From Candidatus Saccharimonadota bacterium (GTDB taxonomy: Bacteria > Patescibacteriota > Saccharimonadia > Saccharimonadales > Saccharimonadaceae): a stretch of DNA of 15,804 nt. The stretch is from assembly GCA_017421685.1 (NCBI GenBank), contig JAFOHW010000061.1:1-15804 (forward strand), in the 5' to 3' direction. Each line of letters opens with the position of its first letter. The stretch's first letter is position 1. The notes beneath the pieces are model-generated. The model did no database searches. It saw only the letters and a list, made by a program, of their open reading frames with translations, and had not been told where the DNA came from. Shown here in pieces: positions 11,228-15,114 of the stretch. A program made the position numbers and the translations under genes.

Positions 11228-11256
11228 ATTATACCCCAGTTTTTGAATTTAGTCAA
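11228..11256 (-). promoter_or_regulatory. canonical sigma-70 promoter of rpmA
   Basis: On the minus strand TTGACT (11256-11251), a 17-nt spacer and TATAAT (11233-11228). The -35 hexamer overlaps the last codons and stop of the methyltransferase gene. It is the only promoter in the window with a clear -35. Confidence 0.85.
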
Positions 11257-12373
11257 GGATTTCGAGGCGCAAATACTCTCCATTTTCTCGAAGCCACGAC
11301 GGCGCTGCGATTATAACCGGCACCCCTGTTTTTATTTGTTTAGACAAATTTTTCAAAAATCCTAAAACTATCGCCTGGCATTCATGTTTTTGCTCTTTAA
11401 ACTCCATTTCTGTCGGAATTTTCGAAAACGGCTTCCCGAGATACCCCTCGCACGCCACCGCGTCTATCGGTTTTTCCCACTGAAAGGATGTCGCATCTCC
11501 TTGTTGAATTTTAAAACGCGTCTTAAAATCCCGACCCAATCCTTCTTCGAGCCCACTCGTCCGCCCGTCTTTACGGGGGACTCGTTCTGCCGTCGTCGGC
11601 TCGACGACGGCGAACACGCTCTCAGAAGAATTACGTCGGGATTTCGCCAACCATTCTATATTCTTCTCGGAATATTCGACCATCTTCTCACTAATATCCG
11701 TTCCATAGGCACGATAACCCATAAGAAGCGCCTCTTGTAATACTACTCCCGTTCCACAAAACGGATCTAAAATCCGCGAATTAGAATCTAAAGGTCCGCA
11801 TAAATTAATTAAGACCTGCGCCAGTTTCGGCGGTAACATCCCAACTTTCGAATCTCTAGCCGGTCTAACCCGATCTCGCTCCGCATACGCATCAATATTC
11901 TGAACCCCGATTACTTTGTACCAATCCTCATTAACCTTAATAAGCTCAACTTTCCGCTCATTTTTCCCCGAAAGACCATTGTGTAAAGACGTCGCTGTCG
12001 ATAAAACCGCTTCCCGATTCTCGACAACCCTAACGCTTCGCCCATGCCGAACTAAAATCTTTTTTAATTTCAAAGCTTCCGAACTTACACTCTTCTTCGA
12101 TGCTCCTTTGGAATAATCCGAAACCCCAATCGTAATTTTGCCTTCTGGTAAATTAGCCAAAAACTCAATCGGCTTTAAATCTAATTTTTTCGCAAGCTTT
12201 AAGCTTCCCCCTAGCCGAGAAATTAAATCAGTCTCCTCTGCGCAATTTTTATCAGAATCCATCATTTCAAAAGTCGCTAGTTTCTCCGAAATCTTCCGAA
12301 CATCAAAAAACAAACTCTCAAGCTCCGCTACCGACAACTCCGGCTGTCGCCCTAAAACTGCAAGGTATTTCAT
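11249..12373 (-). CDS. TRM11-like SAM-dependent RNA methyltransferase with palindrome-encoded insert
   Basis: Probable tRNA guanine-N2 methyltransferase of the TRM11/Trm-G10 group. Residues 1-160 form an N-terminal RNA-binding part (ending IGVQNIDAYAERDRVRPARD), probably THUMP-like. The SAM-binding motif I is ILDPFCGTGVVLQEALLMGY (201-220), and GTDIS follows. The expected catalytic motif IV (N/DPPY type) appears as ACEGYLG near residues 307-313, with Gly in place of Pro. Residues 244-283 are an insert between the helix after motif I and the strand FKIQQGDA. They are Arg/Ser/Glu/Gly-rich and encoded by a GC-rich palindrome. The 374 residues without the insert would be about 334. The leaderless start follows TGG-TATAAT and 6 nt. 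The substrate nucleotide is inferred from the family only. Confidence 0.85.
   Translation of the reverse strand: MKYLAVLGRQPELSVAELESLFFDVRKISEKLATFEMMDSDKNCAEETDLISRLGGSLKLAKKLDLKPIEFLANLPEGKITIGVSDYSKGASKKSVSSEALKLKKILVRHGRSVRVVENREAVLSTATSLHNGLSGKNERKVELIKVNEDWYKVIGVQNIDAYAERDRVRPARDSKVGMLPPKLAQVLINLCGPLDSNSRILDPFCGTGVVLQEALLMGYRAYGTDISEKMVEYSEKNIEWLAKSRRNSSESVFAVVEPTTAERVPRKDGRTSGLEEGLGRDFKTRFKIQQGDATSFQWEKPIDAVACEGYLGKPFSKIPTEMEFKEQKHECQAIVLGFLKNLSKQIKTGVPVIIAAPSWLRENGEYLRLEILD
11526..11644. repeat. 119-bp palindromic element inserted in frame in the methyltransferase gene
   Basis: Perfect 10-bp terminal inverted repeats (AAATCCCGAC at 11526-11535 against GTCGGGATTT at 11635-11644) are extended inward by AAT/ATT, CTTCT/AGAAG, GAGC/GCTC and TCG/CGA. 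About 25 of the first 34 positions pair. Inside are two hairpins: GTCC-G-CCCGT / ACGGG-GGAC (11559-11581, loop CTTT) and a perfect 10-bp GCCGTCGTCG/CGACGACGGC (11589-11598/11602-11611, loop GCT). GC is about 59% by hand count, well above the flanks. The whole element is translated, as residues 244-283. Confidence 0.75.
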
Positions 12374-14880: not shown

Positions 14881-14978
14881 TATCCTCCGAGTTTTAACCA
14901 GTAATATCTATTCGTCAAGAAATTCTAGCATATTTGACTTAAATTATTTATTAGATTTTGCTACATGTGAAATTACCA

Positions 14979-15054
14979 AATAAAAATAAAAATCTTACGG
15001 ACCGGAGCATGTCCGTCCCATGCGAGAGGTCCGACTAAGATTTTTATTTTTATT
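14979..15054. repeat. 76-bp three-tier intergenic palindrome, possible bidirectional terminator
   Basis: It lies in the 249-bp gap between rnhA and tyrS, the longest non-coding stretch here; I see no small gene in that gap. A perfect 19-bp AT-rich stem (14979-14997 with 15036-15054), a 6-bp CGGACC/GGTCCG stem (14998-15003/15028-15033) and a 5-bp GCATG/CATGC stem (15007-15011/15019-15023, 7-nt loop) are stacked with small bulges. The T-rich arms on both sides would let it terminate rnhA transcription. The arm motifs ATCTT..CGGACC and GTCCGA..AAGAT are shared with the xseA palindrome. Confidence 0.7.
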
Positions 15055-15114
15055 ATGCCGTAATTTTACCGTAGCTAAATTTAATAAAGAATTTAAATCA
15101 AACAATATCTAGAA

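Follow-up and report, generated by a model that had tools for sequence, protein, structure and literature searches.

A genus-wide family of putatively mobile, protein-coding palindromes in Saccharibacteria

A two-part palindrome in a methyltransferase gene

We analysed a stretch of 15,804 nucleotides from a Candidatus Saccharimonadota bacterium (contig JAFOHW010000061.1; the whole stretch is called the window below), which carries a palindromic DNA element inside the gene for a TRM11-like RNA methyltransferase. The host gene is an open reading frame (ORF) of 374 amino acids on the minus strand (11249..12373). Its assignment is based on the ORF, on Pfam matches to UPF0020 (4e-9) and Methyltransf_31 (4e-8), and on a homologue, P0101, whose source name is tRNA (guanine10-N2)-dimethyltransferase. 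The whole element measures 119 bp (11526..11644), is in frame with the gene and corresponds, by arithmetic, to residues 244-283 of the ORF.

An earlier, sequence-only reading of the window had described a palindrome with 10-bp perfect ends, further pairing inward and two internal hairpins, which encodes these very residues, and our analysis bears out both points. The segments 11526-11552 and 11618-11644 form an inverted repeat of 27 nt that is 81% complementary and whose outermost 10 bp are perfect. Folded with RNA parameters, the region 11516-11654 reaches -65.4 kcal/mol, compared to -38.7 +/- 3.7 kcal/mol for 200 dinucleotide shuffles, none of which is as good as the native sequence (z -7.14). 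The first internal hairpin, GCCCGTCTTTACGGGG (11563..11578, plus strand), is conserved and is the hallmark of the family described below, as seen in an exact 16-mer search of genus genomes. The second hairpin (11589..11611, plus strand), recognized by inverted-repeat and fold analysis, has a 10-bp perfect stem and is subfamily-specific.

The same reading had put the GC content of the element at about 59% in AT-rich surroundings. For the element as a whole this holds, at 58.8%; the window has 38.7% and the gene outside the element 42.8%. The compositional step, however, does not coincide with the ends of the palindrome. It falls at the edges of a 77-bp core (11547..11623) with 67.5% GC, whereas the two 21-nt outer arms have 42.9%. 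One arm (11526..11546) is host-like in GC and is not shared with the sister copies of the element at the level of blastn; the other (11624..11644) is complementary to it at 18 of 21 positions. Since the GC step falls at the core and the arms match the host gene in GC, the element is composite: the core looks foreign, whereas the arms resemble the host.

A scan of the window against Rfam at the gathering threshold returned only a tRNA and no family for the palindrome, and neither a phage collection nor one pattern scan of viral contigs contained a match to the element. Finally, the C-terminus of the host ORF, near 11249, is about 36 residues short of that of a 97% identical homologue (P0001), which may be real or an assembly error.

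Copies across the genus, reading frames and recurrent sites

The core has three further copies in the same genome, at 97-99% identity, which makes four near-identical cores in total. The three sister copies lie inside long open frames of mnmA-, cysteine desulfurase- and tatD-like genes, names that are our reading of the translations. All three have the same orientation relative to their gene, and the window copy has the opposite one. Outside the core the copies diverge, and the own flanks of each copy pair with each other. A pattern search of this genome that allowed two mismatches found 12 sites, compared to 4 for the reversed control; two of the 12 resemble ordinary coding sequence. A second TatD fragment (G000:C56:3813-4193 and G000:C11:247-1098), 92% identical to the element-bearing TatD, is found at a contig end and may be a paralogue or the result of strain mixture.

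Beyond this genome, an exact search with the 16-mer of the conserved hairpin matched 42 sites, spread over 28 of 174 genus genomes (our own included); the reversed control matched none. We also built a model, R1, from 37 genus elements. It contains only 7 base pairs, because the subfamilies misalign outside the first hairpin, and it serves as a detector rather than as proof of structure; being built from the genus, it favours the genus. A model search of the genome and its relatives had been proposed in the sequence-only reading, and it proved productive: R1 has at least 13 matches in our genome, and at E<=0.01 it finds 58 of 60 genus genomes positive, with at least 647 matches. When 148 genomes of the order were searched at E<=0.001, R1 hit the 6 listed members of the genus (our own included) and 2 of the 142 others; these two belong to one other genus of the same family, of which two listed members are negative. 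As judged from these sequence comparisons, the palindrome in the window is one copy of a large, genus-wide family of apparently mobile palindromes in core genes.

To characterize the reading frames, we used 98 copies, taken from 80 stretches around the best-scoring R1 matches of 14 relatives and from 10 loci of our genome, and counted a copy as gene-spanning if at least 60 open codons flank it on each side. In this set, 65 copies are in genes with an unbroken frame, 3 have flanks that are open in different frames, 1 keeps the frame and contains stops, and 29 are not spanned by a gene. Thus, 66 of the 69 gene-spanning copies have the same frame on both flanks, where one third would be expected (P about 5e-28), and 65 of these 66 are free of stops, given that the mean share of open frames per core is 0.556 of six (P about 8e-16). 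A look for copies in other genes had been proposed in the sequence-only reading; they are present in a range of unrelated genes, and 65 of the 69 gene-spanning ones are both in frame and unbroken. According to the translations, the host genes include those for LeuRS, IleRS, TruB, RecX, LepA, Der, PolA, UvrB and TsaD. Among the 65 copies, five reading frames of the conserved hairpin are in use (by 11, 3, 15, 17 and 19 copies), in both orientations, and the sixth frame contains a stop. Hence, there is no conserved peptide.

We also predicted the structure of the methyltransferase from an alignment of 47 sequences (A3; model numbering is ORF numbering minus one). The mean predicted local distance difference test score (pLDDT) is 80.5. 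The insert is placed between a helix (228-253) and a strand (286-290), includes a short helix (275-281), and has pLDDT values below 50 at residues 249-269 and 271-277; residues 119-128 and 132-137, which are distant from the insert, are likewise below 50. In this predicted model the insertion site is compatible with the fold of the protein. Apparently, the elements are translated, non-domain insertions in loop sites, resembling in this the Rickettsia palindromic elements (RPEs), and they would be harmless to the proteins that carry them.

The site in the methyltransferase is occupied in many relatives. From 7810 homologues, the 120 best were compared to the insert-free P0064 at this position: 107 have at least 15 additional amino acids, and the other 13, with fewer than 15 extra residues, provide insert-free orthologues, for which the sequence-only reading had proposed an alignment. 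Had the region been an ordinary loop, about 40 conserved residues might have been expected; the inserts shown among the homologues, however, differ widely in sequence. A second site in the same protein has an insert in 27 of the 120 best homologues. Only one relative that the methyltransferase search returned bears a name, a Saccharibacterium from goat ileum, and it has no insert at the first site. At the DNA level, motifs caught 21 of 30 methyltransferase loci, all 21 with an insert, and all 30 TatD loci, of which 29 have at least 55 residues between the motifs and one has 43. Among stretches chosen as likely to be empty (20 for each gene), 9 methyltransferase and 19 TatD loci were caught, and all are short (34-36 and 29-42 residues, respectively). 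Some of the short TatD loci (L289 and L292) look to us like scars, in which arms enclose little or no core.

Occupants differ between genomes. The TruB site contains cores of different subfamilies, in both orientations, combined with similar arms, and at the lepA site both cores and arms differ between genomes that are 92-93% identical there. The methyltransferase site is an old, recurrently occupied hotspot and not a fresh insertion. We also tested for homogenisation within genomes across three sites, after dropping 12 of 90 loci that the motifs did not catch. A score of at least 40 is reached by 5 of 21 pairs from different sites of the same genome, compared to about 6% of 1986 pairs from different sites of different genomes, and by 14% of 996 same-site pairs between genomes. 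Because likeness at the same site between genomes is strong too, this comparison cannot separate transposition from an exchange of cores. Another palindromic family, with a longer core, is present at the same hotspots (TatD loci L207, L218, L225 and L227; lepA in L313, at about 17260-17505), and R1 did not report it at these TatD sites.

Pairing, covariation and length of the outer arms

Over the 98 copies, the pairing score between the two arms of a copy has a median of 11.6, compared to 1.0 when left arms are combined with the right arms of other copies (481 pairs). We then compared sister copies, in 48 within-genome pairs (51 copies) whose cores reach an identity of 0.88 or higher (1.0 in two pairs). 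Their arms are 0.28-0.50 identical at 7-21 nt outside the core and 0.20-0.31 further out. Within a copy, in contrast, the arms pair at 0.83-0.93 of positions between 7 and 21 nt, at 0.68 between 22 and 24 nt, and at about 0.4 or less beyond, whereas in the interval of 7-21 nt an arm pairs with that of a sister copy at 0.11-0.22. The mean GC content is 68.9% for cores, 38.9% for arms and 44.9% for flanks. Since the arms are host-like and locus-specific, they either formed together with the copy or were present before the core arrived.

At two sites an arm can be recognized as host sequence. In TatD, by our reading of L208, L228 and L232, the arms extend into the codons of the conserved VAIGE strand. 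At the end of rpsO, in two close genomes, one arm consists of the last S15 codons and the stop, and the other is an inverted copy of it in the intergenic region. A third close genome lacks the core and the second arm. This difference looks like a loss, because the element is present in two of the three genomes, and in three of four aligned stretches the genome without it has one of these two as its closest match. The rpsO-end palindrome itself (L313-L315) follows immediately on the S15 stop codon, measures 117 bp and is of a third type.

We analysed covariation in 12 TruB loci of equal length (of 30, of which 25 were caught by motifs), which are gap-free in the outer 13 pairs; the loci are related, and the structure was taken from one of them, L234, which favours it. 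Across 18 pairs, 82.7% of 214 cells are paired, compared to 69.2% after shuffling. Changes on both sides are seen at 11 pairs and in 29 cells, with 6.0 and 9.0 in shuffles, none of 500 of which is as high, and only 3 cells show a change on a single side. The covariation score is 0.348, compared to 0.117 in shuffles and to at most 0.272 after sliding by one column. The number of further pair types is 17, compared to 13.8 in shuffles (26 of 500 as high).

The types of mismatches bear on the level at which pairing is maintained. In the 65 in-gene copies, read in the sense of the mRNA, 85 non-Watson-Crick cells comprise 19 G.U, 40 A.C and 26 others; the other 33 copies, read in element sense, have 5 G.U, 10 A.C and 7 others; and 52 site loci (of 56 given), which are partly the same copies, have 20, 28 and 21, respectively. 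There is no excess of G.U, which argues against selection on RNA, since such selection should favour G.U. Taken with the locus specificity, the host-like GC and the covariation of the arms, in which wobble intermediates are few, this is matched better by a copying of one flank onto the other in DNA than by selection for mRNA structure.

We next consider length. When the model match is subtracted from inserted methyltransferase genes, a median of 14.7 residues is kept (18 of 27 loci measurable), compared to 10-14 residues in insert-free members of the genus (10 in 14 of 22) and, counted by eye, to about 15-16 residues in 17 of the 23 measurable genomes of the order (of 27). Because the remainder of the inserted genes is close to the length in the order, the insert adds little beyond its core, and the insert-free genus members may represent losses. 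In TatD, the genus (L204-L233 and L287-L306) lacks a segment between HP and VAIGE that has 20-36 residues in the measured genomes of the order (L356-L382), with 25 residues in 10 of 19 loci measured of 27. Insertion and deletion at the site may have removed it from the genus as a side effect.

Origin of the elements and competing explanations

Taken together, the copies with their in-frame pattern, the recurrent sites with different cores and orientations, and the locus-specific, covarying arms are in our opinion probably explained by non-autonomous palindromic DNA elements that code for protein and form one family across the genus, with a moving core and with host-derived arms that are made complementary at the DNA level. 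A GC-rich core of about 75-88 bp with two hairpins would spread by copying within genomes, to tolerant loops of housekeeping genes and to intergenic DNA. The element would simply be translated, the survivors being copies that keep the frame without a stop, and the peptide would act as disordered filler. The outer stem would lie outside the moving part, as host flank that is made and kept complementary in DNA. Most likely, one flank would be copied onto the other, either when the palindrome folds during replication, by template switching of the quasipalindrome type, or when cores are exchanged between occupied sites. Quasipalindrome correction by template switching makes the two halves of an imperfect inverted repeat complementary; it passes through no G.U intermediates and leaves the length unchanged. 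It is a mutational mechanism at single loci, whereas in our family it would act on mobile copies in their hundreds. A further-reaching version, which we regard as possible though rather doubtful, is that the element forces the host flanks into mirror copies and thereby rewrites codons, so that DNA folding drives concerted changes of TruB, TatD and LepA across the genus. A stem rewritten from host sequence would mean that folding of the DNA alters the protein sequence to the left and right of an insertion.

Several points weigh against the reading of a moving core with host-derived arms. No mobilising enzyme was identified: Y1_Tnp, the domain of Y1 transposases, is absent from all 18 genus genomes searched, including our own, although these assemblies are incomplete; of 12 genomes from elsewhere in the order, 5 have it, 4 of them above the cut-off. 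Among the aligned stretches of the three close genomes no fresh insertion was seen; at lepA a different element is present, and rpsO, the one clean case of presence and absence, looks like a loss. The mobile unit may extend by a few bases into the arms, as sister arms are slightly above chance near the core (0.28-0.50), and two copies of our genome, L002 and L003, have by our reading more arm sequence in common. Moreover, weak selection on DNA or RNA structure could keep the arms. As for length, the difference between insert-free genus members (10-14 residues) and inserted genes (about 15) would by itself permit a short inverted duplication; only the comparison with the order argues against it, and this test is indirect. 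The TatD lengths are uninformative on the origin of the arms, because the genus lacks the order-wide segment.

Such a duplication is the strongest rival. Insertion would copy about 15 nt of host flank, inverted, to the other side, and the arms would be new, host-derived DNA of fixed length. It would explain why arms differ even between the two pairs with 100% identical cores, why pairing falls off after about 21-24 nt, how one arm can be plain host sequence, as at the rpsO end and in the VAIGE codons of TatD, and why methyltransferases with an insert retain about 5 residues that most genus members without one lack. We nevertheless consider it unlikely, since inserted genes have only about the order-wide host length, with no net extra arm, and since the same-site arms in TruB co-vary between species, which a one-off event leaves unexplained.

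The strong, covarying stems would also be expected of a functional mRNA hairpin, active in bypassing, processing or regulation, with arms kept by selection for RNA pairing. Keeping the frame and avoiding stops would be needless, however, if the segment were bypassed or spliced, and G.U is rarer than A.C in the mRNA sense. In addition, cores are found in either orientation and also beyond genes, and unrelated cores occupy one site in different species. This makes an mRNA function very improbable. Related precedents are the GC clusters and the mobile translational bypassing elements (byps) of yeast mitochondrial DNA, which are GC-rich hairpins scattered in coding sequence. The frame of a byp insert is irrelevant, whereas in our family the frame is preserved by 66 of the 69 gene-spanning copies, and 65 of these 66 contain no stop.

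Repetitive extragenic palindromic (REP) sequences, moved by REP-associated tyrosine transposases (RAYTs, of the Y1 type), are dispersed, GC-rich hairpins of like size, and together with miniature inverted-repeat transposable elements (MITEs) they resemble our family in being short, non-autonomous palindromic repeats. Our family differs from both in that 65 of the 98 copies are in frame within genes, and the arms of sister copies are largely unshared, unlike the terminal inverted repeats common to all copies of a MITE. No target-site duplication was recognised, in a set of loci that included no fresh pair of empty and filled sites from close relatives. Given also the lack of Y1_Tnp in the 18 incomplete genus assemblies, we give a REP/RAYT system hardly any chance. 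A conserved protein loop or domain that is GC-rich by coincidence might account for the 107 of 120 best homologues with some insert at this position, but it is practically excluded, as it is contradicted by the DNA-level copies, with the same DNA in five frames, in both orientations and in unrelated proteins, by insert-free orthologues, and by the low-confidence, loop-like appearance in the predicted model.

Protein-coding palindromes are best known from Rickettsia (PMC10969869), and a large family can now be added from Saccharibacteria. A review of MITEs describes RPEs as elements of about 150 bp in ten families, with 44 insertions in R. conorii and with in-frame fusions, each with a conserved peptide (PMC10969869). 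The sequence-only reading had proposed a selfish palindrome analogous to RPEs, and the analogy stands for the palindromic nature, the similar size, the many copies in several subfamilies and the in-frame position in unrelated genes, as given in the same review. It does not extend to the moving part, which here would be the 77-bp core, nor to the peptide, which RPEs conserve (PMC10969869), whereas our family uses five frames and both orientations. Furthermore, the arms are locus-specific and host-like, the sites are recurrently occupied with turnover of cores, and the host is a Saccharibacterium rather than a member of the Rickettsiales; the likeness is one of description. With this family one can test by what route palindromes get into coding sequence and what keeps their stems paired. 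Annotators should be aware that a loop extended by tens of residues in an enzyme of Saccharibacteria can be mobile DNA.

The window contains a second palindrome, which is intergenic (14960-15075). It spans about 116 nt, folds with -48.9 kcal/mol and combines another, shorter GC-rich core with AT-rich arms; its core motif is absent from the 382 loci that we fetched.
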